Part shown: positions 4,812-37,877 of the stretch, piece by piece
How the letters are laid out: the number at the start of each line of letters is the position of its first letter
Position numbering within the stretch: position 1 is the stretch's first letter
Position numbers and translations under genes: made by a program
Notes under the pieces: generated by a model
Seen by the model: the letters and a program-made list of their open reading frames with translations, nothing else
Told to the model about the DNA's origin: nothing
Database searches by the model: none
From: a virus
DNA length: 60,342 nucleotides
Reading direction: 5' to 3' (one strand)
Virus record (IMG/VR): IMGVR_UViG_3300008262_000063
Coordinates: 1 to 60,342 of that record

Positions 4812-7800
4812 ATGTCAGATAGTTCATTATCATTTATATCTACAGCTAGTTTCAGAAACAGTTTAATGTCTCGTAATTTAGCTCCTTATACATTACAAGG
4901 AGTGTATTCACCCCCTGTGTCTAATACTAATTACCCGACAGTCATAGGAGATTTAAATGTTATTGATTCACCAAATAATTTAATTGGTGATAGCCCGTTT
5001 CCTGATAGATTATATCCATTAAACGAATATGGACCTGAAGGTGGGTATTCTAATACTGTTATAAATAACAAATATCCATTAAGACCAAACAAAGGTGAAT
5101 ATGACCCAAATGACACTGAACTTGATTTGGTTAACGAATTTTATATTGACGCAGCTTATATAGAAAACAGATACGGACCTATTGGTGGTTACATGAGTAT
5201 GGTGGTAATTGATTCTTTGGAAAATAAGAATAAGTTATATACCCCATATTGGAATCCACCGACATTTATTCCGTCTTCTTATTCACCTTATCAGATTTTG
5301 TTATCAAATGATCCAACAGGTTCTTCAGGTTTATTATCTCAGGATTCTTTCATCGTTAAGTTGGGCGCTCAAACATTAAAGAATTTATTACAAGATAGAG
5401 TTGATGTTGAAAATGCTCAAATAAATGGAAGTGCTGGTAGTTTGGACACATTTAGTAATCCTTTGAATTCAACTTTGCTTGTATCAGGTAGACTAGATAC
5501 TACTAATAAAAATTACAAAATTACCATACCTGAACAAGGATTAGGAACATCTCAGTCATTATCTTCAAGGTTATCAGACAATTATTTTCCTGCGTCACCA
5601 ATACCCGGAGATTATTTTATCGAGAGTCCATTTAACGGTGGTTCAAGTGCTCAGATTACAAGTGGTGTAAATGCTTTAAATCAATTAACTGGTGGTGCAT
5701 TGGGTGGGATTCTGAATGTTTTAAGAAATCCATCACAAATATTTTTAGCTAATACGGGTAATGGACAACGTTCCATTCTTTTTGCCAATATAGATTATAA
5801 CAGATACCAACCTCCATACGATAGAAACTTGGGAGCCGCAGTTGCCGTAGGACAATTTGCACTTAACGCTCTTGATGTAACGACAGGTGGTTTTTATGTT
5901 GGTAGTAGAAATGCTGACCCATCAACAATTACCTCACCTCCGAATCAAATTCCTGTTGATGCTTTTGGAAGACAGATTCAGACACCTGTTTATGGACCTT
6001 CTGAATTGGGAATTTTATTTGAAGGTAATGAAAATAAAATAAATTTTGGTTTAGCAGGTAAATCATTTACGGATGGTGGAGGTATTGATGGACAATTTGT
6101 TTGGACATCACCAAAATATAAAGGGAACGCTGGATATAAAGCAACACCTGGTGGGGGTGTTGGATCACTTGATACTGAATTCAATCAAATTAGTTCACAA
6201 TATACTAGTAATGAATCAACAAGTATAACATTCAAACCTTCATCAATATTAGATGCTACACAAAGATTAATTGAATCTGCGGATAATGTTGCTGGTATAA
6301 CAAAATTAAAACATGTTGGAAACGCTATAAATCAAGTGAGTAAGGTTTTCAATGATGGGTATAAAGAAATGACTAAAGGTTCAAGGGTTTTATCATATCA
6401 AGATAATACAAATGGGGGAGAAGCGGGTATTGAATATTGTAGGGTATTTACAAAAGATACTCCATATTACACTTATAATGATTTACAAAAAACTGATGGA
6501 ATAACAACATCAGGAAGAAGATTTGTGAATTCAGTTTTTGATAATACATACAACCTAAACATAGCACCACTAAGAAATCCTGGTTCTACAAATATACTAC
6601 CTAATGAAAAAGGACAATTAGTTGCTAAGAAATATATGTTCTCTTTGGAAAATTTGGCTTGGAGAACTTCAAGTAGGCCTGGACTTACTTATGATGATTT
6701 ACCTGTATGTGAGAGAGGACCTAATGGAGGTAGAGTAATGTGGTTTCCACCTTATGATTTAACATTTAGTGATACTAGTACACCAAACTTTCAACAAACC
6801 AATTTCTTAGGTAGACCTGAACCAATATATACATATAATAATACAACTAGATCAGGTTCTATTAGTTGGAAAATAATTGTGGATCATCCATCAGTTATGA
6901 ATACAATAATTGAGAAACAATTAAAAGGACAACAAAAAGAAAGGATTGATTCTATAATTGATTCATTCTTTGCTGGATGTGTTAAATATGATGTATACGA
7001 ACTTGCTAAAAAGTTTAATATGTTAAAACCATCCGATATCTATGAATATCAAGAAATTTTGAATAACCCTAGATTAACTAGAGAGGAATTAGCGGGTGTT
7101 AATTTTGAAATACAAAAAACTGTAACAATACCAGCACCTATAGGTGGAAGTACAAATGGTCAAGGTGGGGATTCAAATATATCAAATGTTGATAAAAAAA
7201 CATATCAAGACGATCCTGAACAGAAAAATTTTGAAGATAGATATAAAGAATTGGCGTTTTATTTCCATGATGATATACCAGGTCCTCAAACAGGAACTGT
7301 ATCAAATCAACCTTATTCACAAACTTTTGATTCTTATAAATCTTTGATGACAACATATGAAAATACATCAAATTCATTATTTGGGGACACATCACCTTTC
7401 TGTAAAAAAACAGGAACAGTTAAAGTAACCGAAAATGGAAGAACTCAAGTTGATACTGGTAAGTCACATCAACAGTATTGTAATGAAGCTAAAAATGTTA
7501 AACAATTCTTTGATACCATAGTTGAATCAAACTATAATGTAATCTCAAAAAATGAGAAAAATTTTATTGTTGATGCTTATAATATTATTAAGAAGGGAGG
7601 TACTGTAACTATCGAAATGATAGGTTCTGCGTCTGCGTTGGGTAATCAAGATTATAATAAAAATCTTTCTTTAAGAAGGATTGATTCAGTTAAGAAATTT
7701 TTTAAAGAAACAACAATAGGTGACGCTAATTTGGGTAATGAAATTGATAAAAAATTTTTTATAAAATCAGCTCAAGGAGATGGTGAGGATATATCAATAC

Positions 7801-9932
7801 CAAAAGCGGGTACTGGTGATACCTTTGGATTTGAGGTAAACTGTAGAAATGATATTAAAGGTGGAAATAATAACATAACCGACAATTCCAAAGCTCAGAT
7901 ATATTCAGTTTATGCAATGGCTTGTAGGAGAGTTAAAATTAAAGAAATTAAAGTTACATTACCACAAGTTGAAGTTGAAAATGAAGTTAAAACCAATCAA
8001 ACTGATATTGCCCCAAAAGAACAAAAGGTAGTTGTAAAATCAACAGTAATACCACCTAGATTACAACCAACTATTAGTGTTACTAAAAAATTGAAAGATG
8101 GTATTAGTAAAAAAATATTAAGAAATCTATTTTCCGAATGTGATTACTTTGATGTAATACAGAAAGAAAATCCGATGATATATCAAACAATTAAGGAAAA
8201 GATTAAATACTTCAACCCAGCGTTCCACTCAATGACACCTGAAGGATTGAATGCTCGTTTAACGTTCTTAAATCAATGTGTTAGACCTGGTGAAACAATT
8301 CCTGTAATAGGTGCTGATGGTAGACCGAAATATAATGATGCAGTTAATACATCATTTGGTGCTCCTCCCATTCTTATTTTAAGGGTAGGTGACTTTTATA
8401 ATACAAAGATTGTTCCTACAAGTTTGGGTTTTACATATGAAAGTAATTTATTGGATATTAATCCTGAAGGTATTGGTATTCAGCCAATGATTGTAAAAGT
8501 ATCTATGGGATTCAATATGATTGGAGGACATGGTTTATCCAAACCTGTTGAACAATTGCAGAACGCATTATCATTTAATTATTATGCAAATACTGAAATA
8601 TATGATGAAAGGGCGACGCCTACTGATGATTCGTATAAGAAGATAGATAAAGAATTAGAACAAGTTATATTAGCTGGTGAAAAACCTGCAACTCTTAATA
8701 ATGTTACTAATAATCCTACAAATGATGGTGGTGATACTATTGGTGAAATTCAGACAAATATACCAATTCCTAGTGGACAAACAGGTGTTACCTCATACCA
8801 AAAAGTTATGGATAAATTCTTTGATGAAACCGTAACATACTTCAACACTGTGGTTAACCAAATGGAAAAAATCACATTGACGTATAATATGGGTATCATG
8901 CAATTAGTGAATGATAAAAGGAAAAATACTAATGGAACCATTTATTTAAGTGGAGCTAGTGTAACACCAAATCCTGAAGTAAAAATAATATGGGGACAAC
9001 CTGATGGTGATAATACAAGATTAACTAAACTATTTACTGATGTAATAAAAGATATTGAAACAAATCAAAATCCATTACTCAATGGCGGATTATTAAAAAA
9101 TAATTTACAAAATGGATATTTTGGTGCTGAACCCGAAATCAAAGAATTTAAGCTTAATTTAATTAACTATATTAAAAAATTAAGTTCAGACTTTTCTAAT
9201 GGTATTGTTACAACTTATACTGATTTAGTAAATTTTGAAGCTAACTATGTTCAGTATTTTAGAAAGATTAATTTAATTGAAACAAAAACCGATGGTAAAA
9301 TTTTAGAAAGTAATGTTCCAAGAGTTTATAATATATCAGGAACCAGTGAAGTTAGTAACTCAAGTAAACCACCAGAAGGACAAGAACCAACAAACAGAGG
9401 TGTACCACAAAATACATTTGAGGAATTAGATTTTGATTATACAGATGTGATTCAATCACTCAAAGAGTATAACAAACTTTTGGATTCAAGTGGTATAACT
9501 ACAAGTAATGAATATCAAGATGGTGAGTTTAGACTGGCTGATACTGAAGCTAATTTTGATCTTGAGAATAAACTTTTCTTCATGGTTATTTCTAGAATTT
9601 TGGATAATAAAAATAAAAGACAAGAATTTGTTTCCGCTTTAACTAAAGGACCTTCAGTAAGTAAAAACAACTTTAAAAATAAATTAGAAAAGGTTGTTGA
9701 AAAGTTACAAAACAAATATTCAAAAGAATTAAGAAAAGAAGAAAAGTTATTTGAGAACTTTAGAAAAAATAAAGAGTTCAAAACATTTGTTAATGAACCA
9801 TTACAAAAATTATTTCCTAAAGGTAAAACAAGAAAATTTGAATACTCAACAGTACCGGGAACTAATGATGTTGCACAGAAGGCTCAAATATTAGCACTAT
9901 ACACAAAAAAAACAAATATATTAGAATTCTAA
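4812..9932 (+). CDS. Giant tail/baseplate protein with OmpA-like peptidoglycan-binding domain
   Basis: This is a 1706-residue structural protein. Residues 1-600 are Gly/Ser/Asn/Pro-rich beta-type sequence. Around residues 885-1045 lies an OmpA-like domain: TVTIEMIGSASALGN followed by YNKNLSLRRIDSVKKFF, matching the NxxLSxxRxxxV signature that binds peptidoglycan. The Asp of the usual GxTD turn is replaced by Ser (GSAS), while the key Arg is kept. Residues about 1165-1260 (ILILRVGDFYNTKIVPTSLG and following) look like a phage baseplate fold. The C-terminus is Lys/Glu-rich and helical. Located between tape measure and gp53, it is probably part of the central baseplate or hub and may anchor the device to the cell wall during injection. 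An exact T4 counterpart is not recognised (gp48/gp54 are possible). Confidence 0.6.
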   Translation: MSDSSLSFISTASFRNSLMSRNLAPYTLQGVYSPPVSNTNYPTVIGDLNVIDSPNNLIGDSPFPDRLYPLNEYGPEGGYSNTVINNKYPLRPNKGEYDPNDTELDLVNEFYIDAAYIENRYGPIGGYMSMVVIDSLENKNKLYTPYWNPPTFIPSSYSPYQILLSNDPTGSSGLLSQDSFIVKLGAQTLKNLLQDRVDVENAQINGSAGSLDTFSNPLNSTLLVSGRLDTTNKNYKITIPEQGLGTSQSLSSRLSDNYFPASPIPGDYFIESPFNGGSSAQITSGVNALNQLTGGALGGILNVLRNPSQIFLANTGNGQRSILFANIDYNRYQPPYDRNLGAAVAVGQFALNALDVTTGGFYVGSRNADPSTITSPPNQIPVDAFGRQIQTPVYGPSELGILFEGNENKINFGLAGKSFTDGGGIDGQFVWTSPKYKGNAGYKATPGGGVGSLDTEFNQISSQYTSNESTSITFKPSSILDATQRLIESADNVAGITKLKHVGNAINQVSKVFNDGYKEMTKGSRVLSYQDNTNGGEAGIEYCRVFTKDTPYYTYNDLQKTDGITTSGRRFVNSVFDNTYNLNIAPLRNPGSTNILPNEKGQLVAKKYMFSLENLAWRTSSRPGLTYDDLPVCERGPNGGRVMWFPPYDLTFSDTSTPNFQQTNFLGRPEPIYTYNNTTRSGSISWKIIVDHPSVMNTIIEKQLKGQQKERIDSIIDSFFAGCVKYDVYELAKKFNMLKPSDIYEYQEILNNPRLTREELAGVNFEIQKTVTIPAPIGGSTNGQGGDSNISNVDKKTYQDDPEQKNFEDRYKELAFYFHDDIPGPQTGTVSNQPYSQTFDSYKSLMTTYENTSNSLFGDTSPFCKKTGTVKVTENGRTQVDTGKSHQQYCNEAKNVKQFFDTIVESNYNVISKNEKNFIVDAYNIIKKGGTVTIEMIGSASALGNQDYNKNLSLRRIDSVKKFFKETTIGDANLGNEIDKKFFIKSAQGDGEDISIPKAGTGDTFGFEVNCRNDIKGGNNNITDNSKAQIYSVYAMACRRVKIKEIKVTLPQVEVENEVKTNQTDIAPKEQKVVVKSTVIPPRLQPTISVTKKLKDGISKKILRNLFSECDYFDVIQKENPMIYQTIKEKIKYFNPAFHSMTPEGLNARLTFLNQCVRPGETIPVIGADGRPKYNDAVNTSFGAPPILILRVGDFYNTKIVPTSLGFTYESNLLDINPEGIGIQPMIVKVSMGFNMIGGHGLSKPVEQLQNALSFNYYANTEIYDERATPTDDSYKKIDKELEQVILAGEKPATLNNVTNNPTNDGGDTIGEIQTNIPIPSGQTGVTSYQKVMDKFFDETVTYFNTVVNQMEKITLTYNMGIMQLVNDKRKNTNGTIYLSGASVTPNPEVKIIWGQPDGDNTRLTKLFTDVIKDIETNQNPLLNGGLLKNNLQNGYFGAEPEIKEFKLNLINYIKKLSSDFSNGIVTTYTDLVNFEANYVQYFRKINLIETKTDGKILESNVPRVYNISGTSEVSNSSKPPEGQEPTNRGVPQNTFEELDFDYTDVIQSLKEYNKLLDSSGITTSNEYQDGEFRLADTEANFDLENKLFFMVISRILDNKNKRQEFVSALTKGPSVSKNNFKNKLEKVVEKLQNKYSKELRKEEKLFENFRKNKEFKTFVNEPLQKLFPKGKTRKFEYSTVPGTNDVAQKAQILALYTKKTNILEF

Positions 9933-24680: not shown

Positions 24681-25631
24681 ATGACTGAAAAAATATTAAC
24701 AGAAAATCCAAATCGTTTTGTGATTTTCCCCATCCAATACAATGACATTTGGGAATACTATAAACAACATCAGGCGGCTTTTTGGACGGCTGAAGAGGTT
24801 GACTTGACAGGTGACATCAGAGAGTGGCAGAACTTGTCTGAGAACGAACAATACTTCATCAAGAACATATTGTCATTCTTCGCAGCATCTGATGGTATTG
24901 TCAATGAGAACTTGGCTGAGAACTTCTACCGTGAAGTACAATACCCTGAAGCAAAATTTTTCTATGGATTTCAATTAATGATGGAAAATATCCATTCTTT
25001 AATGTATTCTTTATTAATTGATACTTATATATCCAGTCCAAAGGAAAAGGACGAATGTTTCAATGCGATTGATAGATTACCTGCGGTTCAGAAAAAAGCC
25101 AAATGGGCTTTGGATTGGATTGAAAAAGCGTCCTTCCAAGAAAGATTGGTAGCGTTTGCTGCGGTTGAGGGGATATTCTTTTCAGGGTCATTTTGTTCAA
25201 TATTTTGGTTGAAATCAAGGGGGGTTATGCAAGGTCTTTGTAATGCTAATTCATTGATTTTCAAAGATGAAAACCTACATTGTGATTTCGCAATTCACTT
25301 GTTGAACAACCACGTTGAGAATAAACCAAGTGAAAAAAGAATAAAGGAAATATTATTGTCAGCTTTGGAAATTGAAAAAGAGTTTATCACAGAATCACTA
25401 CCAGTGTCATTAATCGGAATGAATTCCAATTTAATGAAACAATACTTGGAATTTGTTGTTGATGGTTTGTTGGTTAAATTTGGATGTAGTAAACAATTTA
25501 ATGTTGAACAACCATTCAAGTTTATGGAACAAATTGCAATTGAAACCAAAGGTAACTTCTTCGAATCAAGAACTATGGAGTATCAAAAAGCAAAACTTAA
25601 CGAAACTATTTCATTCACAGACGATTTTTAA
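24681..25631 (+). CDS. nrdB: Ribonucleotide reductase class Ia, beta subunit
   Basis: 316 residues. All di-iron ligands of class I R2 are visible: the Asp in AEEVDLTGD, Glu and His in ENIHS, Glu in VEGIFFSGS, and Glu and His in DENLHCD. The radical Tyr is in MYSLLIDTY, four residues after the ENIHS His. The sequence order is closer to the eukaryote-like R2 group than to E. coli NrdB. The C-terminus SFTDDF matches the short acidic-aromatic tail that docks on the alpha subunit. It supplies the tyrosyl radical for reducing ribonucleotides to deoxyribonucleotides. It is coupled to the helicase (3 bases) and to nrdA (9 bases). Confidence 0.93.
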
Positions 25632-25640
25632 AAATTAATT

Positions 25641-28058
25641 ATGTCATTAAGAATTCAAAAAAGAGATGGGGAGGTTGTCGCCTTTAACCCCACCAAAATA
25701 CAAACAAGAATTAAACGAGCAAGTAAAACCCTAAATGTTAATTCAGATCAGATATTCATTAAGGTAATCACATCAGTTCCAACTGAGGGTATAATCTCAA
25801 CAAAACAATTGGATAAGTTGATTTATGAGATTGCTGCGTCATATACTGGAAGTCATCACGATTATTCAAGGTTGGCTTCCTCTGTTGCAATATCCTCATA
25901 TCACAAAGAAACCAATGAAAGTTTTAGTCAAACAATGAAATCATTGGCTAGTGTTGGAATTGTTAATGAAGAGTTAATAAATACAATTAACCAATATGGT
26001 GAATCAAACATTGATGAGGTTATTAATCACGATAATGATTATAACTTTGATTACTTTGCTTGGCGTTCATTGTATGAAATGTATTTGTTGAAAACTCCTG
26101 AAGGTGTTACAGTTGAAAGACCCCAACATATGTATATGAGGGTTGCTTTATGGGTAACAAAATCATTTGATGATGCTATTGAATACTACAAATCTTTATC
26201 AAATCAACTTATATCTCCGGCAACCCCAATCATGATTAATTCGGGAACAAAGATTCCACAATTAGCGTCATGTGTATTACACTACAATGATGATGATAGT
26301 AGAGAAGGTTTATTGAATACAATGACTGACATATCAACATACTCAGCGGATGCCGCGGGTATCGGACTTTGTATGTCAAATATTCGTAGTAAAGAAAGTA
26401 GATTGAGTACATCTGGTGGATATGCTGGTGGATTGTTAAAATATCTTAAAATTGTTAATGAATCGTTAAGATTTTTTAATCAACAAGGAAGAAGACCAGG
26501 TTCTGCTGCAATATACTTAGAACCTTGGCATAAAGACATATTTGACTTGTTGGACATCAAAAAGAATACTGGTGCTGAAGAACTAAGAGCTAGGGATTTA
26601 TTCACTGCATTATGGATTCCTGACAACTTTATGAGAGCGGTGAAGGAAGATAGTGATTGGTATTTATTTTGTCCCAACGACATCAAGAAATCAGGATTAC
26701 CTGCGTTGCAAGAAGTGTATGGGGATGAATATGAACATGTCTATAACAAAGCGGTTGAATTAGGTATTGGTAAAAAAGTTAGAGCACAAGATGTGTGGAC
26801 TAAGGTAATTGAGGCTCAAATTGAGACTGGTGTTCCTTATCTATGTTCTAAAGATAATGCAAACAAAAAGACAAACCATCAAAACATTGGGGTGATTAGA
26901 CAATCGAACCTTTGTAATGAAATCTATCAATATACGGATGAGAAAACAACGGCAATCTGTACATTATCTTCAATGGTATTAAAGAACTTTGTTAAAGATG
27001 GTACATTTGATTTTGAATTGTTATATAGAGAAACAAGAAAGGTTGTTAGAGCGTTGAACAAGGTTATTGATATTAATAACTACTCAACATCAAAAGGTGA
27101 AAAGGGTGGAAGAGAACAAAGATCAATTGCGATTGGAACACAAGGATTAGCGGATGTATTCTATCTAATGGATTATGAATTTACATCACCTGAGGCAAAA
27201 CAACTTAATAAAGATATCTTTGAAACAATTTATTATGCTGCGATTAAAGAGAGTAATAAATTAGTTAAAAGTGGTGAATACAAAGCGTATGATTTCTTTG
27301 TAGGGTCACCAATGTCAAAAGGTACATTCCAATTTGATATGTGGGGATTGACAGAGGATAACTTATCAGGTAGATGGCCGTGGTTACTATTAAAAGATAG
27401 TGTAATCAAATATGGTGTATGTAATTCATTGTTTACAGCTCAGATGCCAGTTGCAAGTTCCGCCAAGATTACAGGTTCATATGAGATGACTGAACCTGCC
27501 CATTCCGCAATATTCAATAGACGTGTAGTTGGTGGTGAGATTACGATTGTTAACAAGTATCTAATTGCTGACTTTGAGAAACTTGGAATATGGGGTGAAG
27601 ATTTGAAAAATGAAATTATATATAACGAAGGTTCGATACAAAATATTAACTTCAATAACCACCTTGATCCGGAAGATAAAAAGTACAATCAAAAAGTTAA
27701 AAGAATTGAACACTTGATTAAGAAGTACAAAACAATATGGGAGATATCACAGAGGGAATTGATTGATATGGCGGCAGATAGAGGTCCATTTATTGACCAA
27801 TCACAATCAATGAATATCTATATGGGTAATCCCACCTTAACAAAAATAACATCATCACATTTCCACGCTTGGCAGAAAGGATTGAAGACATTATGTTATT
27901 ATATTAGAACTAAGGCAATATCAACTGGTGCCAAACATTTGGCTATGGACATATCTAAGATGGACAAACCAAGGACAACACCAACATTACCTCACGTTGA
28001 TCAAATAAAGACAAAACCTGACGATTCACCATTCGATTGTTTCGGTTGTTCATCGTAA
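25641..28058 (+). CDS. nrdA: Ribonucleotide reductase class Ia, alpha subunit
   Basis: 805 residues. An N-terminal ATP-cone (residues about 1-90, LRIQKRDGEVVAFNPTKI) provides allosteric control. The active site shows Cys in LASCVLHY (about residue 212), NLCNEI (Asn, Cys and Glu near residues 423-427) and Cys in AICTLSS (about 440). The C-terminus DCFGCSS keeps the CxxC pair used for re-reduction by thioredoxin or glutaredoxin. GSAAIYLEPWHKDI is typical of the class I family. It forms the complete enzyme with the preceding NrdB. The operon ends with a strong intrinsic terminator. No glutaredoxin is seen in the window. Confidence 0.95.
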   Translation: MSLRIQKRDGEVVAFNPTKIQTRIKRASKTLNVNSDQIFIKVITSVPTEGIISTKQLDKLIYEIAASYTGSHHDYSRLASSVAISSYHKETNESFSQTMKSLASVGIVNEELINTINQYGESNIDEVINHDNDYNFDYFAWRSLYEMYLLKTPEGVTVERPQHMYMRVALWVTKSFDDAIEYYKSLSNQLISPATPIMINSGTKIPQLASCVLHYNDDDSREGLLNTMTDISTYSADAAGIGLCMSNIRSKESRLSTSGGYAGGLLKYLKIVNESLRFFNQQGRRPGSAAIYLEPWHKDIFDLLDIKKNTGAEELRARDLFTALWIPDNFMRAVKEDSDWYLFCPNDIKKSGLPALQEVYGDEYEHVYNKAVELGIGKKVRAQDVWTKVIEAQIETGVPYLCSKDNANKKTNHQNIGVIRQSNLCNEIYQYTDEKTTAICTLSSMVLKNFVKDGTFDFELLYRETRKVVRALNKVIDINNYSTSKGEKGGREQRSIAIGTQGLADVFYLMDYEFTSPEAKQLNKDIFETIYYAAIKESNKLVKSGEYKAYDFFVGSPMSKGTFQFDMWGLTEDNLSGRWPWLLLKDSVIKYGVCNSLFTAQMPVASSAKITGSYEMTEPAHSAIFNRRVVGGEITIVNKYLIADFEKLGIWGEDLKNEIIYNEGSIQNINFNNHLDPEDKKYNQKVKRIEHLIKKYKTIWEISQRELIDMAADRGPFIDQSQSMNIYMGNPTLTKITSSHFHAWQKGLKTLCYYIRTKAISTGAKHLAMDISKMDKPRTTPTLPHVDQIKTKPDDSPFDCFGCSS

Positions 28059-28066
28059 AAAATAAG

Positions 28067-28098
28067 AATCACGACATTATGTCGTGATTTTTTGTTTT
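28067..28098 (+). terminator. Strong intrinsic terminator after nrdA
   Basis: A perfect 10-base-pair stem, AATCACGACA (28067-28076) with TGTCGTGATT (28080-28089), a 3-base loop, then TTTTGTTTT. It separates the nucleotide-metabolism operon from the baseplate wedge operon. Confidence 0.88.
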
Positions 28099-28102
28099 AT
28101 GG

Positions 28103-28110
28103 TATTTATA
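28103..28110 (+). promoter_or_regulatory. TATTTATA box upstream of gp25-like gene
   Basis: TATTTATA directly follows the nrdA terminator and lies 29 bases before the chosen ATG at 28140. A second TATTTATC (28129-28136) is only three bases from the ATG. The position just after a terminator supports a promoter role. Confidence 0.45.
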
Positions 28111-28139
28111 GAAATAATTCAAACATTATATTTATCAAT

Positions 28140-28598
28140 ATGGCAGATGGATTTACATATGGTATAAACTTTCCATTCCGAGATTCATATCTTGGAAACT
28201 ATTTAAGTTTATCTCAAACAACAGATGAGGAAGTAAGAACTAACTTAATTCACCTTCTCTTAACAAGGAAAGGTACAAGATATTATTTACCTGATTTTGG
28301 TACTAGATTATATGAATACATTTTTGAACCAATGGATGGACCGACTTTCTCTGATTTGGAAGCCGAAATAAGGGATTCAGTTACTGAATATTTACCGGGC
28401 ATTACAGTTACAAATATAACAATAAATCCGGCATCTGAAGGTGAAGAAGATAAGGGTACATATATCAACGACAATAATGAAAGAGTTTTTACAGTACCAG
28501 GAATTAGTCAAGCTGAACATACCGCGAAAATCAAAATAGATTACTTGGTTACCGATACAGCATTTAACTCAAGTGATTTTATAATTATCAATATTTAA
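28140..28598 (+). CDS. Baseplate wedge protein gp25-like
   Basis: 152 residues from the ATG at 28140 (MADGFTYGINFPF). An in-frame ATG at 28092 would add 16 residues, but it lies inside the terminator tail and before the TATTTATA box, so the shorter start is preferred. The core EEVRTNLIHLLLTRKGTRYYLPDFG, then LYEYIFEP, is the signature of the gp25/GPW family, whose members join wedge proteins to the first sheath ring. Length fits T4 gp25 (132 residues). It begins the second baseplate operon, followed four bases later by gp6. Confidence 0.88.
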   Translation: MADGFTYGINFPFRDSYLGNYLSLSQTTDEEVRTNLIHLLLTRKGTRYYLPDFGTRLYEYIFEPMDGPTFSDLEAEIRDSVTEYLPGITVTNITINPASEGEEDKGTYINDNNERVFTVPGISQAEHTAKIKIDYLVTDTAFNSSDFIIINI

Positions 28599-28602
28599 TA
28601 TT

Positions 28603-30441
28603 ATGGCGAATAAAAAAATATCATATACAACCAGGGATTTTCAGTCAATAAGAACTGAATTAATAAACTTTACTCGAACATATTATCCTGATTTAATTGA
28701 TAATTTCAATGATGCTTCGGTTTTCTCCGCATTATTGGATTTAAACGCTGCGGTATCAGATAACTTACAATTTAATATAGATAGAAGTATACAAGAAACT
28801 GTATTACAATTTGCACAACAACGTTCATCTATTTTTAACATAGCTAAAACTTATGGTTTAAAAATCCCCGGACAAAGACCATCAGTTGCGTTAGTTAATT
28901 TCTCGATAACAGTACCAGCATTTGGTGATAGAGAAGATTTAAGATATTGTGGTATATTAAGAAGAGGGGCTCAGATTAATGGTGCGGGACAAGTATTTGA
29001 AACCGTTTATGATATTGATTTTGCTTCGGCAGTAAATGCTGAAGGATTCCCAAATAGGTTAAAAATACCTAATTTTGATTCAGGAAATAGATTGTTAAAC
29101 TACACTATTGTTAAACAAGAAACGGTTGTTAATGGTATCACTAAAGTGTTCAAAAGAGTAATAACACCAAACGATATTAAACCATTCTTTGAATTATTTT
29201 TACCTGAAAGAAATGTTTTAGGGGTGACAAGTGTGTTATTAAAAGATGGTACACAATATGCTAACATACCCTCAGTACAAGAATTTTTGGGATTAGATAA
29301 TAGATGGTACGAAGTAAAGGCTTTGGCGGAAGATAGAGTTTTTGTTGAAGATCCAACTAAAGTTGCGGATAACCCTGGTATAAAGGTTGGAAAATATATT
29401 ACAACCTCAACCAAATTTATAACAGAATACACACCTGAAGGATTCTTTAAAATGACATTCGGAGGTGGAAGTCAATCGGCTGATGAACAATTGAGAGAAT
29501 TCGCAAGAAATGGATATCAGTTAGATTTATACAAGTACTCTAATAACTTTGCTTTAGGTAGTACACTTAAGGCGAATACGACATTATTTGTTCAATATAG
29601 AATAGGTGGAGGAACATCTAGTAATTTAGGTGTTAATGTGATAACTCAAATAGGTACTGTTTCATTCTTTGTTAACGGTCCTTCAGATTCAGTTAATACA
29701 AGTGTGGTTAATTCATTATCTTGTACTAATGTCACTGCAGCTATTGGAGGGGCACCAAATCCAACAACCGAAGAGGTTAGAAACTTGGTGGCATTTAACT
29801 TTGCTGCACAAAACAGGGCGGTAACTGTTAATGATTATGAATCAATAATAAGAACAATGCCGTCTCAATTTGGAGCACCTGCAAAGGTATCAATAACTGA
29901 GGAGAATAACAAAATTAAAATTAAGATTCTATCTTATGATGAGTCAGGAAATCTAACTGAAATCACCTCAAACACACTTAAAAGTAATATTGCGAACTAT
30001 CTATCAAACTATAGAATGATAAATGATTATATATCAATTGAATCTGCAAATGTAATTGACTTATCGTTTACAATTGATGTTGTCTTGGATAATAGTCAGA
30101 ATCAGGGGGCGGTTATCGCTCAAATTGCCGATAGTGTTAGTGAATATATGAGTCCAAAATCAAGAGAAATGGGACAAAATGTTAATGTATCTGAAATCAG
30201 AAGAATAATCCAATCTCAAAATGGAATTATATCAGTTGCCGATATTTTAATTTTTAATAAGGTGGGAGGACAATATTCATCATCTCAAACTTCACAAAGA
30301 TATTTGGATAGTAATACAAAACAGATAGAATTAATTGACGATACCATATTTGCGGAACCGAGTCAAACGTATCAGGTTAGATTTTCTGGTAAGGATATTA
30401 ATGTGAGAGTTAAGAATTTATCTACCGTCAATTTCTCCTAA
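28603..30441 (+). CDS. Baseplate wedge protein gp6-like (J-like)
   Basis: 612 residues. The opening KKISYTTRDFQSIRTELINF with YYPDLIDNFNDASVFSALLDL and a helix starting LNAAVSDNLQFNIDR is characteristic of T4 gp6 and P2 gpJ-like wedge proteins. The middle includes NRAVTVNDYESIIRTMPSQF, the conserved core of that family, followed by beta strands. Gp6 dimers form the inner ring of the baseplate and trigger sheath contraction. T4 gp6 is 660 residues. The gp25-gp6 order is the usual one. Confidence 0.88.
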   Translation: MANKKISYTTRDFQSIRTELINFTRTYYPDLIDNFNDASVFSALLDLNAAVSDNLQFNIDRSIQETVLQFAQQRSSIFNIAKTYGLKIPGQRPSVALVNFSITVPAFGDREDLRYCGILRRGAQINGAGQVFETVYDIDFASAVNAEGFPNRLKIPNFDSGNRLLNYTIVKQETVVNGITKVFKRVITPNDIKPFFELFLPERNVLGVTSVLLKDGTQYANIPSVQEFLGLDNRWYEVKALAEDRVFVEDPTKVADNPGIKVGKYITTSTKFITEYTPEGFFKMTFGGGSQSADEQLREFARNGYQLDLYKYSNNFALGSTLKANTTLFVQYRIGGGTSSNLGVNVITQIGTVSFFVNGPSDSVNTSVVNSLSCTNVTAAIGGAPNPTTEEVRNLVAFNFAAQNRAVTVNDYESIIRTMPSQFGAPAKVSITEENNKIKIKILSYDESGNLTEITSNTLKSNIANYLSNYRMINDYISIESANVIDLSFTIDVVLDNSQNQGAVIAQIADSVSEYMSPKSREMGQNVNVSEIRRIIQSQNGIISVADILIFNKVGGQYSSSQTSQRYLDSNTKQIELIDDTIFAEPSQTYQVRFSGKDINVRVKNLSTVNFS

Positions 30442-30515: not shown

Positions 30516-33500
30516 ATGTCAAATACATATAGAATAAGAACCCAAGTTGGGGTTGATAAATCCATTAAATTACTATTAGATCAGGATTTTGAACAGTTAG
30601 AGATACTTTCTCTTAAAATATTATCAAGTCAAGTTTATAATAGACAATGTTCCGATTATGGTGTTATCATTGGTAGAATATCTGCAAATAATGGATTAGG
30701 TTTACCAAATTGTAAGGTATCTCTATTTATTCCACTTTCAAGTGAAGATGAAGAAAATCCTGTAATATCAACTTTATATCCGTATAAATCACTATCTGAT
30801 GTCAACGAGGATGGGTATAGATATAATTTATTACCATACACAAAATCATATAGTGCTCACGTCCCTACAGGTAGTTTTCCTGATAGAGAAGATGCTTTGA
30901 TTGACACCAATGTGATTGAAGTTTATGATAAGTATTATAAGTTCACAACACAAACGAATGACAGTGGTGACTATATGATATTTGGTGTCCCACTTGGTTC
31001 ACAAACGATTCATGTTGACATTGACTTATCAGACATCGGTGAATTCTCATTATCACCACAGGACTTAATTAGAGCTGGTGTTGCGACAGAATCTCAGGTT
31101 GCAGGTGCTTCATTTAAATCATCAAGTAATTTAAATAGTTTACCTCAGATTATATCATTTAACAGAACAATAAATGTTGATCCTTTTTGGGGAGAAACTG
31201 ATGTTTGTAGTATTGGTATAACAAGAACTGACTTCGATATCACTGCGGAATCAAATGTGAATATCACACCAACTGCGATATTCATGGGTTCTATTATTTC
31301 ATCAGGGGATGATCAATCTCAAAAAAGTAATTGTAAAATAAAACCAAAACAAGGTGATTTATGTGGATTAGTTGCTGGACCTGGTGAAATTTTAGCAATT
31401 AGACAAACAATACAACAAGATAATCAAGGTAGACCAATACTTGAAGTTTTTGAATTGGACTCAGGAGGACAAGTTATTGATGATAATGGTACATGGTTAA
31501 TTGATGTACCAATGAATTTGGATTATGTCTTCACTAATGAATTTGGTGAAAGAGTTATATCTAACGATCCAAGTGTTGGTATCCCGACAAGAGGAAAATA
31601 TAGATTTAAAATTAAATGGAATCAATCACCTAAGTTATCTGATCCAATTAAAAGAGCGTATTTCTTAGTTCCAAATATTAGAGAATATGGTTGGACATCA
31701 GGTGGAAATGATCCGGGAGTGTCAAATCCAAATGTTTATAAATCATACGCTTTTAGTTTAGATTGGGATGAATATGTTGATCCTCAAGCCGCTATAGATT
31801 GTGAGGATTATTTTTATTTAATGTCATTTAATAAAGTTTATACTGTAACACAATTAATAGACCAATATAGAAGGGGTTATTTACCTAATAGAACAATTTC
31901 AATAAGAAATATCTTGGACGATGCTTGTGAAAGTGAAAACGTTAAGTTCCCTACTAATGATGCTTTTTATAGATTTGATTCACAATATTTGTTATTTATT
32001 ATTTTGTTATATATCGCTAGACCAATATTATATATATTATTAATAGTTTCACATCTATTGGCGGGATTATTATATGTTTTAACATTTGGTAGTTCACTTT
32101 GGAGAAAAATTGCAAACTTAAGATTACCAAATTTATCTTATCCTGATTGTGATTTGTGTAACTGTAAAGAAGGGGGTGACGCAACAGGTCCGGGTCCTTC
32201 AGCGGCACAAACAGCAATTGACGAGGCATTAACTCAACAAGGATATTTAACACCACTATGGTCTTTCAGTCAATATACACGACCAGCAGGACTTTGGCAA
32301 GATAGACATGGTGAACAGAACCCCAATCCCGCTAGTTTTACATATCCTTATGATCAAATCAGTCAACTAAACGGTGTTTGGTGTGGACAATATAGTCCTT
32401 TTTGTGATCCACAGACTAATTTCTTAGACGAACCCAATTATTTAACATTTTCTGAACAACTTTTATTAACAGGAAAACCATACGATCCCGGATTACCATC
32501 GCCAGGTACATTTGCACCTCAAATGCAAGATTTATTAAACGGTAGAAAGATATTTACAACAAGTATCCCAATTTTCGAGAGATTAAATCTTTTTAATTTA
32601 AAATCAGCATACTATGATGGTAATAGGACTACTGAATGGGATTATTATGTTACTGGTCAGGATGGGGATTGGTTTCCTCAAAATCAAGATGTAAGAAATT
32701 CAACCAATCCTTGGGGTGGTGGAAATAGAATTAGAGTGTCATTCAGACCAACATTAAATGGTTATCCTGATTGGCGTGACGATCCTTTTTCATTCACCGA
32801 CAAATGGATTGTGTTTGGCACTGAAGCACCATATCATTTTGATAATGTATTAGTTTTGATGGTAAAACCTGAAAAATTAGGTGAATTTACATCAGGTAAA
32901 CTAGTAACATTCCAAAATCCTGAATTATCAAGTGATAGAAATCTAACAGGAAATACGACAAATCAATTTGGTAATACTGCCACTACAGGACAAACTATTA
33001 ACACTGGACCTACGAGTATTGATGTTAATTGGGCTAAATTTGATGGGACGGGAGATAATGTAACAACCTATCTAATTAATGATGGGGTTGATGAAGTAGA
33101 ATATAATAAATATCCAATGGATATTGAATATTTTCAAGTTATTACTGCAGACACTATTGCTAATTTTTATAGTTTTCTTTATGGACAACCAGGAAATCCT
33201 GAAAATTATCAATTTGATTATTCATTTCCTTTTTCTGGTAAACATTACCCCAACTATCCTGGTACATTACATCACGCATTGTTTACCCGTACTAATATTG
33301 TTACAATGAGAGTTGATGATAACGATTTTGTTCAAAATCAATATCGAGGTCAATCTAATACTAATAGATTTTATCAAACAGGTACATATCGTGTTAGTCC
33401 TGCACAATCATTTAATAATTTTGAAAATCAAGTTCTTGTATTCTTAGTAAGAGGAGTTGACCCGTATTCCAAGAGAGGTGAAGTTGAGTATGATTTATCA

Positions 33501-36038
33501 GGTGTTATTAATCCATTCTCTTCGCCTATATGGGCTAGAACTCCAGTTCCCCCAACAAACTTGGGAATAAATAACTGGAATAGATTTGATTTTAGTTCAA
33601 ATTGTAATCCTTATTATAATCCTGGATGTATCGATCCCTTACAATCCCCCCTTCCAAGATTTGTAGTTAGAGGTGATAATTTTAAACTAAACATACCAAT
33701 TAATGGAGGTATTAAAAATACTAGACACAATAATAATGTCGATGGGTTTGATTCTGATAGTGGACAATATTTGTATTATCCATCATATCGTTATAAACCA
33801 AATACTGTAGGTACATCTAGTTTTATTGAATTTAATTCAGGATTACCTAAATATTATTCACAATTAGATAAAACAACATTTTATTCTTATTTGGATAATG
33901 CTAGAGATGTTAGTGATGTTACAAATAATAGTAACACAAACCCTACAACACAAGACAATCCAGTATATTTAAAACTGAATAGAGATTATCAGTCAAACAA
34001 CAGAGGTTACCCCCCACGATATACTGAACAATTAAGAAACGCATTTCAAGTTGAATTCAGAAGAATACGTGATCTTCAAGAAGAAAGATATCCTATTTTA
34101 AATGGGGATCAAGATCGTATAGGGCTTGATAGACATAAAAGTCCAAACATATATTATCGTTCATATTGGCCGAATCAAATTGTTGAAGGTGGTACATTTA
34201 TGAATCAAGTATTATGTTTAAATGGTGGGGCTGGACAATGTAGTTTAGGTCCTGATTTAGATCCTAACGATAATAGACCAAAAGGGGTGTCTTATTATTA
34301 CGCCCCATCTTACTTATTATATAATTTATCATATTCATATACCACTACAATGGCGTCTGAGGGTAGAATCGTAATGAGATCGGATAGGTTACCTATCTCA
34401 ACATCATATATTCAAGATTTACAGAATGTTTTCCCATTATTTTCTAACCCATTATTTACGGTATATACCATAAATGAAGATGATGATGGAAGTGGAGGAA
34501 CTGGAGGTTTATTTGGATCTAGTACATCATCACCTCTTAACACACCAAACTTTGGTGATATAGCACAGAATGCTGAGGATAATCCGGAAGGAGTACCAAT
34601 ATTAAATACATTTTCATGCGAATCATTAGTACCATTAGGTTGTTATACTCCAGATGGTAATGAAATTACTGTTTTAGAAAGACCCAATGTTTGTTATGAA
34701 AATGGTGTAAATAACGCACTTATCATCGATAATGGTTGTTATGTACTTATAACAGCACCATTTGCCTCAATAATTAAAGATTTTTCATTATTAAACGAAT
34801 GGACAAATAGGATACAAATTAACTATGCTGCTTGTAGAAATATATGGTCGCATATGTTTACGAATAATTGGATTAATGGTACATTATATGCCTTCTCCTT
34901 CAAAAACGATACATTTTTCGACATTAATAACAACCCTGTACGTAATTATTGTAAAGATACTGTAATACTACATCCGACTAATAACTATTATTATAGAAGT
35001 AGCCCATACATCTCAGGATCAACAACACAATCGGGAACATTTATTGGGGCTAATAGAAGAGCACCTACAGTTGGGACATATAAAGGTAATGAAAGAAATC
35101 TTAAATTCCCAACAACTATTGTTGATTTAGGACCTAGAAATGACTTCACACAAGAATTAGTACTTACTAATGAATATGATGGATATATAATGAACAGATT
35201 ATCCGATACAACATATAAAGATGTATCTGAAATTCTTAATATCCTAATTGTAAGTAGATTAATTAATAACAGCTTTATTCAAAATTTATTAGGTACTGGA
35301 GGAGCAAATGTTAAGAGTTATTTCAATGGTAGAGATGAGTATAAAAACTTTGTTGATGGTGATTATGCTCAAATGATTTCAATAAATTCAGAATTGGGTG
35401 TTGTTGAATTTGATGCTGATAATTATCCACCAATTGGTGGACCAAATGATCAGGATCCAATTTATTTTGTAAGTACTCGAAGTGATGATCCTGTATTTGG
35501 TATATTCTTTTCATCTGATTCACAAACTAGAGACTATCTTTCACCAAAGAGAACAATTATTAATCCGCTAGCATCTCCGAATAGTAGCTGTGCTTTTAGT
35601 AATTTCTTTGTTTATTCACAAGAAGTGCCATTTTACCAGTGGCAAATAAATAACAATGAGAATTCAGCCGGATCACCATACAATAACATATTTGGTTCAC
35701 AGAGTAACACATGGTTCACCACACCGATTTCAACATCGTTCTTTAAAAGAAGATATCAATCATTGGATAGGTTAGATACAAACTCAAGATATTTCAGAAG
35801 TAATAGTTCGTTCTCAAGAGATTCTAAAGGATATATTTATTCGTATGACAGTAATCCATTATCACCAAATTACAATCAATACGACGCATCGCGACCATCT
35901 TGGAATACAAATAGTCCCCAATCGAATGCGGTTACAGTTGGTGCCCCATATTATTTTTATTTTGGGTTGAAAAATGGTAAAACCGCATGGGATAGATTTA
36001 TTAAGAAATGGATAAACTTTGAAAACATAACAGAATAA
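30516..36038 (+). CDS. Giant baseplate/tail structural protein with internal hydrophobic segment
   Basis: 1840 residues. The N-terminus TQVGVDKSIKLLLDQDFEQL with LSLKILSSQVY starts the wedge-like part. It is followed by a carboxypeptidase-regulatory-like beta domain (ANNGLGLPNCKVSLFIPLS and NDSGDYMIFGVPLGSQT, residues about 55-170). Residues about 490-529 are strongly hydrophobic (LLFIILLYIARPILYILLIV and onward), resembling two membrane helices, and are followed by Cys-rich CDLCNCKEGG. The rest is Tyr/Asn/Ser/Pro-rich beta sequence with many FYR/YYR motifs. By position after gp6 it may correspond to T4 gp7, the large peripheral wedge protein (1032 residues), but similarity is not evident. 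The next gene starts immediately after the stop. Confidence 0.6.
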   Translation: MSNTYRIRTQVGVDKSIKLLLDQDFEQLEILSLKILSSQVYNRQCSDYGVIIGRISANNGLGLPNCKVSLFIPLSSEDEENPVISTLYPYKSLSDVNEDGYRYNLLPYTKSYSAHVPTGSFPDREDALIDTNVIEVYDKYYKFTTQTNDSGDYMIFGVPLGSQTIHVDIDLSDIGEFSLSPQDLIRAGVATESQVAGASFKSSSNLNSLPQIISFNRTINVDPFWGETDVCSIGITRTDFDITAESNVNITPTAIFMGSIISSGDDQSQKSNCKIKPKQGDLCGLVAGPGEILAIRQTIQQDNQGRPILEVFELDSGGQVIDDNGTWLIDVPMNLDYVFTNEFGERVISNDPSVGIPTRGKYRFKIKWNQSPKLSDPIKRAYFLVPNIREYGWTSGGNDPGVSNPNVYKSYAFSLDWDEYVDPQAAIDCEDYFYLMSFNKVYTVTQLIDQYRRGYLPNRTISIRNILDDACESENVKFPTNDAFYRFDSQYLLFIILLYIARPILYILLIVSHLLAGLLYVLTFGSSLWRKIANLRLPNLSYPDCDLCNCKEGGDATGPGPSAAQTAIDEALTQQGYLTPLWSFSQYTRPAGLWQDRHGEQNPNPASFTYPYDQISQLNGVWCGQYSPFCDPQTNFLDEPNYLTFSEQLLLTGKPYDPGLPSPGTFAPQMQDLLNGRKIFTTSIPIFERLNLFNLKSAYYDGNRTTEWDYYVTGQDGDWFPQNQDVRNSTNPWGGGNRIRVSFRPTLNGYPDWRDDPFSFTDKWIVFGTEAPYHFDNVLVLMVKPEKLGEFTSGKLVTFQNPELSSDRNLTGNTTNQFGNTATTGQTINTGPTSIDVNWAKFDGTGDNVTTYLINDGVDEVEYNKYPMDIEYFQVITADTIANFYSFLYGQPGNPENYQFDYSFPFSGKHYPNYPGTLHHALFTRTNIVTMRVDDNDFVQNQYRGQSNTNRFYQTGTYRVSPAQSFNNFENQVLVFLVRGVDPYSKRGEVEYDLSGVINPFSSPIWARTPVPPTNLGINNWNRFDFSSNCNPYYNPGCIDPLQSPLPRFVVRGDNFKLNIPINGGIKNTRHNNNVDGFDSDSGQYLYYPSYRYKPNTVGTSSFIEFNSGLPKYYSQLDKTTFYSYLDNARDVSDVTNNSNTNPTTQDNPVYLKLNRDYQSNNRGYPPRYTEQLRNAFQVEFRRIRDLQEERYPILNGDQDRIGLDRHKSPNIYYRSYWPNQIVEGGTFMNQVLCLNGGAGQCSLGPDLDPNDNRPKGVSYYYAPSYLLYNLSYSYTTTMASEGRIVMRSDRLPISTSYIQDLQNVFPLFSNPLFTVYTINEDDDGSGGTGGLFGSSTSSPLNTPNFGDIAQNAEDNPEGVPILNTFSCESLVPLGCYTPDGNEITVLERPNVCYENGVNNALIIDNGCYVLITAPFASIIKDFSLLNEWTNRIQINYAACRNIWSHMFTNNWINGTLYAFSFKNDTFFDINNNPVRNYCKDTVILHPTNNYYYRSSPYISGSTTQSGTFIGANRRAPTVGTYKGNERNLKFPTTIVDLGPRNDFTQELVLTNEYDGYIMNRLSDTTYKDVSEILNILIVSRLINNSFIQNLLGTGGANVKSYFNGRDEYKNFVDGDYAQMISINSELGVVEFDADNYPPIGGPNDQDPIYFVSTRSDDPVFGIFFSSDSQTRDYLSPKRTIINPLASPNSSCAFSNFFVYSQEVPFYQWQINNNENSAGSPYNNIFGSQSNTWFTTPISTSFFKRRYQSLDRLDTNSRYFRSNSSFSRDSKGYIYSYDSNPLSPNYNQYDASRPSWNTNSPQSNAVTVGAPYYFYFGLKNGKTAWDRFIKKWINFENITE

Positions 36039-37877
36039 ATGGGTAATAGAAATGATACAAGAATAGTTTTAGGTTCGTTTAGATATAAAGGATCACCTAA
36101 TACCGATTTATCAATTCCACTTGATTTGGAGGAAACTCAAAAACAAATGGTTGAATATGAAAGAACCGCCAACGTAAATTTGGAAGAAACTTTTTTACAA
36201 GAAAGGGAAAGTTCTAACAAATTCAGACCGGCTTGTAAGTTCTCAATAATATTTAAAAACGCTTATACTGGCTCGACTATTGGAAATCCACCATACCCGC
36301 CTTTTGAACAGAATTTGTATTATGTTAACGCTTTGGAAACAGTTATTCAAAGATGTGACCCAAACTCAAATTTCCCATGGGGTGGATTTCCATTGTATAA
36401 TGAATTTGATTTTATTCGATATGATAATAATGTATCAGGATATACGGCATCATCGGGTTCAACACCTGCTCATGTAAACTTCGCAACTAAAAGTGCATCA
36501 AGTTATAATTGGAACTTTTTCATCAGTTATGCTTATGAGAATGATTATAATAAACAATTACGAGCAACATTCAAAGTACCGAATGAGCCAAATCCTACAT
36601 TCCCAACGGTAAATTGGGGAGTTAGTGATGGTATTCCATTCGTTATTAAACAATCAACATATAATGGAAGAAATATAATTGGATTTAGATGTCCTATTAA
36701 ACACGGGATGAGTGTTGGAGATTTCTTTAAAGTTAGTTCCAATTTCAGATACACTGGAACTAGTGTTAATGATGTTTATCAAGTATATTCATTGGGTGAT
36801 AACATATTTGGTAGTGAAGAATATGTGTTTAATATCATTAATGTAGGATATACTGGTACAACATTTAATGATGGAGGGCAAGGTACTGCTCGAAGAGTTA
36901 TATCAAGAGATAATGTTGATGATACTATCTCAAAATATTATATAAGAAAAAATAAAATATTAACAAATATTGATGATGTTATTGTTACTAAAACAGGATT
37001 CGAACAGACAGCATTTAGAAATGTTAAAAAATTTGAACCAGCAAATTTAACCCCTAATTTAACATCAAGAATATCAGTTAAAGAAGGATCTCAAGCTTAT
37101 TCAGTTACAGTAAATAACATTGTAGATATTAATAATTTGTTGGATAATCAAAAGAGACCTGTTTCTGAATTATTTTTTACCGTTATGTGGAAAGGGTATT
37201 TTGGATGGACATTTGGAGTTAATAATTCTCAGACTGGAAATTATTACCCTATGAAACAAGGATGGGACTTTAATATACCATCATCAGGAACAACAACAGT
37301 TCCTAATCCTTGGTGGGATAATAACAATTCATTATCGAATACCAATTTCACATTTTCAGACTATCAAAAAACGATAAATGGTAATGACTATAATTTCACC
37401 TATTTGAATACATTACAAAAAGATGATGTATTGGATGGTGATTTATGTGAGTGGAATGATTTTGAACAAACTGAAAGAGTAATTTCTCGTGTTTACCATA
37501 AAATAAAATTTAACCCAAATTTATTTAATATAAATCAATCAAACGATACTACAGCCTCCAACCAAAGAGGATATTATTATAATCCATTACACTCAATGAC
37601 AATTAGAGTTTTTTCGGATTATATAGAGGAAGGTGATAAAAAATTGGTTGAAAATATTCCGAACTACGCATATTTCACATCAACAAATGATAAATTCATT
37701 TGGAGAGATTTATACCCTTATGGGTATGTTGACAGTACTGGATTGGGTGTTGATTATCCATTTTTAAACGGTGTTCACTATCCTCATGAAAATTTTATTT
37801 TTAGAATTATTCCTGAAGGAACTAATTATATTGAACAAACCATAACCAGACAACCAATAAGTGACCCTTGTGAATAA
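36039..37877 (+). CDS. Baseplate-associated structural protein, unknown family
   Basis: 612 residues, beginning GNRNDTRIVLGSFRYKGSP. It is Asn/Tyr/Phe/Pro-rich with beta-type composition, containing NLEETFLQERESSNKFRPAC, then NPPYPPFEQNLYY, and ending IIPEGTNYIEQTITRQPISD. No catalytic motif, signal peptide or membrane segment is seen. It starts one base after the preceding stop and overlaps the next gene by 17 bases, so it is translationally coupled inside the wedge operon and is very likely a virion protein. No specific T4 counterpart is recognised. Confidence 0.6.
   Translation: MGNRNDTRIVLGSFRYKGSPNTDLSIPLDLEETQKQMVEYERTANVNLEETFLQERESSNKFRPACKFSIIFKNAYTGSTIGNPPYPPFEQNLYYVNALETVIQRCDPNSNFPWGGFPLYNEFDFIRYDNNVSGYTASSGSTPAHVNFATKSASSYNWNFFISYAYENDYNKQLRATFKVPNEPNPTFPTVNWGVSDGIPFVIKQSTYNGRNIIGFRCPIKHGMSVGDFFKVSSNFRYTGTSVNDVYQVYSLGDNIFGSEEYVFNIINVGYTGTTFNDGGQGTARRVISRDNVDDTISKYYIRKNKILTNIDDVIVTKTGFEQTAFRNVKKFEPANLTPNLTSRISVKEGSQAYSVTVNNIVDINNLLDNQKRPVSELFFTVMWKGYFGWTFGVNNSQTGNYYPMKQGWDFNIPSSGTTTVPNPWWDNNNSLSNTNFTFSDYQKTINGNDYNFTYLNTLQKDDVLDGDLCEWNDFEQTERVISRVYHKIKFNPNLFNINQSNDTTASNQRGYYYNPLHSMTIRVFSDYIEEGDKKLVENIPNYAYFTSTNDKFIWRDLYPYGYVDSTGLGVDYPFLNGVHYPHENFIFRIIPEGTNYIEQTITRQPISDPCE

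Follow-up and report, generated by a model that had tools for sequence, protein, structure and literature searches.

A conserved hydrophobic module in a very large protein encoded at the T4 gp7 gene position of uncultured T4-related giant phages

Gene context of the 1840-residue protein

The window, by which we mean the whole stretch of DNA that was analyzed, is a viral record of 60,342 bases with 35 main ORFs, among which genes for gp25-like and gp6-like baseplate wedge proteins precede an ORF encoding a protein of 1840 residues (Table 1). Other genes of the window encode gp53-like and hub-like tail proteins, as well as T4-type replication proteins that include UvsX, a DnaB-type helicase, a primase and a single-strand DNA-binding protein. 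Relatives of the 1840-residue protein were found in at least 593 confirmed stretches of IMG/VR, on contigs of up to 322 kb, and the viruses form a widespread, uncultured group of giant phages related to T4, represented by hundreds of viral contigs of which some exceed 300 kb. No isolated relatives were found for the 1840-residue protein or for its homologues L164 and L081. The protein is present as a single copy in each of the long phage records (7/7), and the gene order that runs from gp25 through gp6 and the 1840-residue protein to the genes at 36039, 37861, 38696, 39924 and 40832 is nearly universal among relatives with sufficiently long contigs. The immediate downstream neighbor gave no matches among phage records. 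From the gene order we infer that the 1840-residue protein is a component of the virion.

Several further observations were made around this cluster. In 12 loci (L013, L019, L036, L039, L040, L046, L051, L055, L103, L106, L108 and L109) approximately 1 kb of extra DNA lies between gp6 and the homologue of the 1840-residue protein, and the window has no such insertion. Directly before gp25, the window carries ribonucleotide reductase genes (24681-28058), which comprise the large subunit (25641-28058) and an ORF that, judged by sequence, is probably the small subunit (24681-25631); in the locus L094 the large-subunit ORF is in two pieces. The closest matches to the large subunit come from a Tenacibaculum phage (40.6%) and a Cellulophaga phage (41.0%), and this similarity suggests, indirectly, that the hosts may belong to the Flavobacteriia. 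Elsewhere in the window, a homing/HNH endonuclease-like ORF (381-1973; PHROG 3339, E 2.6e-114) stands just upstream of the hub-like gene, and a protein of 1706 residues (4812-9932) showed a weak, sub-threshold match to OmpA-like domains of the peptidoglycan-binding type (residues 910-970, E 0.0035).

Where the contig of a relative includes upstream sequence, the gene for the 1840-residue protein nearly always comes directly after gp6, as it does in the window; this is the position of the gp7 gene in T4. The protein resembles T4 gp7 (PHROG 964) in this location, in its very large size and in having a hydrophobic segment, although the segment of gp7 is weaker and lies near the C-terminus, whereas that of the 1840-residue protein lies at one quarter of the chain. 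Searches of PHROGs, of Pfam above the cut-off, of PDB sequences and of 50,697 phage records returned no matches to the protein, and PHROG 964 was not found in the 7 long relative records. Profile comparison with T4 gp7 was likewise negative (hhalign of A1: probability 0.3%, E 0.19, 21 columns; no Pfam or PHROG match), profiles did not place the protein with gp10, and the proteins encoded after gp6 in Flavobacterium phage immuto and in the uncultured phage LR756508 showed no similarity to it. Since the position is shared while profile similarity is absent, we claim the gp7 position for this gene and not identity with gp7.

Table 1. Positions of the 1840-residue protein, its predicted parts and its neighbors in the window.
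Feature	Coordinates	Strand	Basis
gp25-like baseplate wedge protein, 168 aa, upstream neighbor	28092..28598	+	Pfam GPW_gp25 45.1 bits (cut-off 27.2); PHROG 261/43 baseplate wedge
gp6-like (Baseplate_J) wedge protein, 612 aa, immediately upstream	28603..30441	+	Pfam Baseplate_J 33.2 bits (cut-off 21.1); PHROG 219 E 5.9e-25
1840-aa protein carrying the hydrophobic module	30516..36038	+	ORF; T4 gp7 gene position
Ig-like/carboxypeptidase-regulatory-like beta domain (predicted), residues 46-249	30651..31262	+	AF2 pLDDT mostly 78-93
Second beta-sandwich domain (predicted), residues 253-446	31272..31853	+	AF2; VIA matches Z ~5 only
Whole module, residues 471-550 (C471 to C550)	31926..32165	+	Cys conservation; length range in relatives
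Hydrophobic helix, residues 489-523	31980..32084	+	AF2 pLDDT 78-88; KD19 2.63; conservation
CDLCNC (C-x2-C-x-C motif), residues 545-550	32148..32165	+	Position in ORF; conservation in homologues
Large region without recognized fold, residues 680-1840	32553..36035	+	AF2 mean pLDDT 70.5
Downstream neighbor, 612 aa, function not assigned	36039..37877	+	Syntenic in nearly all loci extending far enough

A hydrophobic segment conserved throughout the family

We measured hydrophobicity as the Kyte-Doolittle mean over 19 residues (KD19). The maximum for the 1840-residue protein is 2.63, while no other of the window's 35 main ORFs exceeds 1.84. Membrane-grade hydrophobicity is thus confined, among these ORFs, to residues 489-523 of this protein. 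This region contains LLFIILLYIA (residues 492-501, 31989-32018) and ILYILLIVSHLLAGLLYVL (residues 504-522, 32025-32081), with R502-P503 between them. When the protein was shuffled 1000 times, the mean maximum KD19 was 1.65 and the highest was 2.86, which indicates that composition alone seldom yields a value of 2.63, although this test, taken alone, is not absolute.

Conservation of the segment provides the decisive evidence that it is real and not sporadic. Of 74 homologues dereplicated at 85% identity, every one reaches a KD19 of 2.3 or more where it aligns with the segment, and the highest value anywhere outside the module is 2.16. The distant homologue L081 led to a second clade, itself divergent, in which 34/34 distinct complete proteins retain a KD19 of at least 2.14 at or near the same position; here the hydrophobic segment falls at residues ~449-638, C-terminal to the conserved N-terminal part. 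A KD19 of 2.0 was reached by 97% of 153 homologues and by none of the 997 neighboring ORFs in the same loci, although these counts are not all independent because the loci partly overlap. One exception in the module count, L158, is truncated by the end of its contig. Chance hydrophobicity is ruled out by this conservation (74/74, 34/34 and 0/997).

Among close relatives, the ratio pN/pS was 0.10-0.29 for the helix compared to 0.28-0.38 for residues 700-1840, and the helix is thus under purifying selection. These low values, together with an ORF that stays open in the relatives, also rule out a frame or assembly artefact.

A few short, distant homologues do not have the module, namely L081 (747 residues) and L083 (728 residues), whose contigs were binned as Wolfebacteria and Bacteroidota and which can serve as natural module-less controls; a scan that started from the L083 protein found no relatives. 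Another distant homologue, of 2220 residues (9986-16645 in L082), is encoded downstream of gp25 and gp6 homologues and has one hydrophobic segment without the counterpart of C471. Its contig comes from a Mycoplasmatota MAG and is probably a phage that was binned with it.

Architecture of the module and predicted structure

The hydrophobic segment is the core of a module that begins at C471 and ends with the cysteines of CDLCNC. All four of the module's flanking cysteines are highly conserved among the 74 homologues (C471 in 73, C545 in 74, C548 in 73 and C550 in 70), as are P479 (74/74), N481 and D482 (71/74 each) and D488 (66/74) before the helix, P503 (59/73), L508 (65/74) and the mid-helix H513 (72/74) within it, and P538 (71/74) and Y542 (70/74) after it. 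The span from C471 to C550 ranges from 78 to 142 residues and is ~130 residues in most relatives, the clade of the window (L001, L003, L004 and L006) having the shortest module, of ~80 residues. The number of hydrophobic segments per module varies from one to five, with KD19 values of up to 3.49 in relatives.

C471 and the CxxC pair appear to be linked. An automatic count found both in 78 proteins, neither in 31 and a mixed state in 4; on inspection, CxxC was present in L134 and L137, C471 was present in L034, and the match in L194 looked spurious, so that the two elements either co-occur or are jointly absent. This association is not statistically independent, because the two states are largely split by clade. 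The pattern points to a module whose two ends may be tied together, with C471 joined to C545, C548 and C550 by a metal or by disulphide. In the second clade (L164, L159, L191 and their relatives, residues ~530-640), the YPDCxxC motif is often absent, and these members carry other cysteine-rich stretches after the helix instead.

An AF2 model of residues 1-700, built from the 74 homologues without partner chains, had a mean pLDDT of 72.2. In this model, two beta domains precede the module, and both resemble Ig-like, transthyretin-like and carboxypeptidase-regulatory domains with middling Z scores of 5-7, the matches of the first reaching a VIA Z of up to 7.1. The Pfam family CarboxypepD_reg scored 14.1 bits in the window and 24.7 bits in L008, below the gathering threshold of 32.3. 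The model of residues 680-1840 had no match in the PDB or BFVD at E<1, and Foldseek searches with both AF2 halves, which are models of middling confidence, returned no phage baseplate chain among the matches listed.

Residues 489-523 were predicted as a single continuous helix of 35 residues, flanked by linkers with a pLDDT below 50. The initial annotation, which was made from the letters of the DNA, had placed two hydrophobic stretches at residues ~490-529, and this was accurate to within a few residues, but it read them as a membrane-like hairpin. The conserved membrane-like element in a protein of the baseplate region is borne out; the two-helix hairpin of the window's protein is not what the model predicts, since R502-P503 lies in the middle of one helix. 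Hairpins may occur in the longer relatives. The cysteine-rich CDLCNC segment that the initial annotation described as following the stretches is present and conserved, but lies ~20 residues further on. Poorly kept hydrophobicity, which it had named as speaking against its reading, is the opposite of what both clades show. The flanks of the helix have opposite and conserved net charges (mean -1.4 before and +1.6 after), and the helix bears a significant polar stripe (hydrophobic moment test, p<0.001); periodicity of conservation along the helix was not significant (p 0.55).

Possible roles of the module

The best explanation for these data, to which we give close to an even chance of being correct, is that this is a dedicated membrane-active module that would insert into the host envelope at infection and thereby anchor the baseplate. 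In the resting virion, the helix, or the helical bundle of the relatives, would be shielded inside the assembled baseplate, where the module would be held on flexible linkers with its ends joined by the cysteine cluster. Contact of the tail with the cell and rearrangement of the baseplate would then expose the module, which could enter the host envelope to a shallow depth or in the form of a loop and so anchor and seal the baseplate on the membrane. Membrane action is favored by the retention of hydrophobicity despite divergence of the sequence in both clades, by the restriction of the hydrophobic stretch to this gene among its neighbors, and by the multiple, strongly hydrophobic segments of the relatives, which go beyond an ordinary buried helix. 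The low pN/pS of the helix, the opposite charges of its flanks, its low-confidence linkers in the model, the pairing of C471 with CxxC and the constant gene context also speak for this reading. Against insertion, the module amounts in effect to one helix in the clade of the window and in most of the second clade, and it is absent from the distant homologues L081 and L083. Were such a minimal form to cross the membrane fully in a single pass, it would leave more than 480 soluble residues on one side and more than 1000 on the other, which is unlikely; insertion is plausible only if it is shallow, re-entrant or looped.

The segment could instead be a structural helix that packs on wedge partners or about the axis of the baseplate without ever touching lipid, which we consider an unlikely but serious alternative. 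Such packing would fit the polar stripe and the single helix of the minimal form, and comparable single segments occur in T4 gp7 (residues 886-904, KD19 2.07; 'predicted integral membrane domain' in its GenBank annotation) and in T4 gp29 (KD19 2.20). The gp7 chain is part of solved baseplates in spite of its segment, albeit a weaker one, and this calls for caution with the membrane reading; the statement of the initial annotation that one would not expect such a stretch in a soluble protein of the virion was therefore too strong. However, the hydrophobicity of the relatives is far higher and extends over as many as ~80 residues, and the helix was modeled on low-confidence linkers rather than packed into a fold, albeit in a model without partner chains. 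The module might also act before infection, by tethering the protein to the inner membrane of the host in assembly or by being recognized by SRP or a chaperone, and we regard this as less likely again. A nascent chain of such hydrophobicity is a likely substrate of membrane targeting or of chaperones, which counts for a role in assembly. There are also precedents, in that the tape measure protein of TP901-1 has hydrophobic regions that have been tied to chaperone recruitment and assembly, without a clear link to insertion (PMC5099701), and the contractile injection system of Anabaena is anchored to the producer's own thylakoid by a transmembrane helix (PMC8894136). A phage, however, must be released, and a permanent anchor would have to be withdrawn. 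The evidence thus leans towards insertion at infection over packing and assembly without separating the three decisively.

Two further readings are much less probable. The initial annotation proposed that the segment helps to form a channel for DNA, and participation in a translocation channel across the envelope, a role proposed for membrane-active tail-tip segments in RcGTA and R4C, is possible; we do not favor it and treat it as speculation with very little probability, since the gene lies among wedge genes, and in T4 (PMC3004832) the products of such genes occupy a place peripheral to the tube. That the ORF encodes a non-virion membrane protein which happens to lie among structural genes is hardly credible, given that dozens of divergent loci keep it in strict synteny inside the cluster of baseplate genes and that the AF2 model gives it large, beta-rich N-terminal domains.

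Known systems offer partial parallels to insertion into the host envelope. The megatron proteins of RcGTA and roseophage R4C, whose N-termini have been proposed to insert in the outer membrane (PMC7296036, PMC10276861), are likewise large tail proteins with a hydrophobic segment (iris/penetration domain). Nevertheless, their tails are non-contractile, the segment lies at the extreme N-terminus, and the iron-sulphur cysteines belong to a separate hub protein, unlike the cysteines of the module described here. In phi29, a pore-forming loop of the tail serves penetration of the cell membrane, according to Xu et al. 2016 as cited in PMC7296036; a membrane-active tail protein would be common to both, but phi29 is short-tailed, does not contract and has no known relation to the present group. 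The Anabaena thylakoid system, which also has a Cis12 extension, shares a contractile tail whose end protein Cis13 carries a putative transmembrane helix (PMC8894136), whereas Cis13 is a trimeric, tail-fibre-like protein that anchors in the producing cell. Transmembrane-grade regions are also found in the tape measure proteins of TP901-1 and T5 (pb2), but these are different proteins that lie inside the tube, and the membrane role of the TP901-1 protein has itself been doubted (PMC5099701).

We found no description of this phage group or of a membrane-active baseplate in the literature searched, largely that outside subscription journals. The family-wide hydrophobic module is real and, as far as that literature shows, undescribed. 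A bolder proposition, that throughout the group a cysteine-clamped insertion device in the wedge docks the baseplate in the lipid of the envelope during contraction, is in our judgement doubtful. If it is true, contractile phages would have a new mode of engaging the cell, in which the wedge docks into the membrane. How contractile phages pass or seal the envelope after entry of the tube is poorly known, and the module offers a concrete, deletable and positionally fixed element with which this can be tested.
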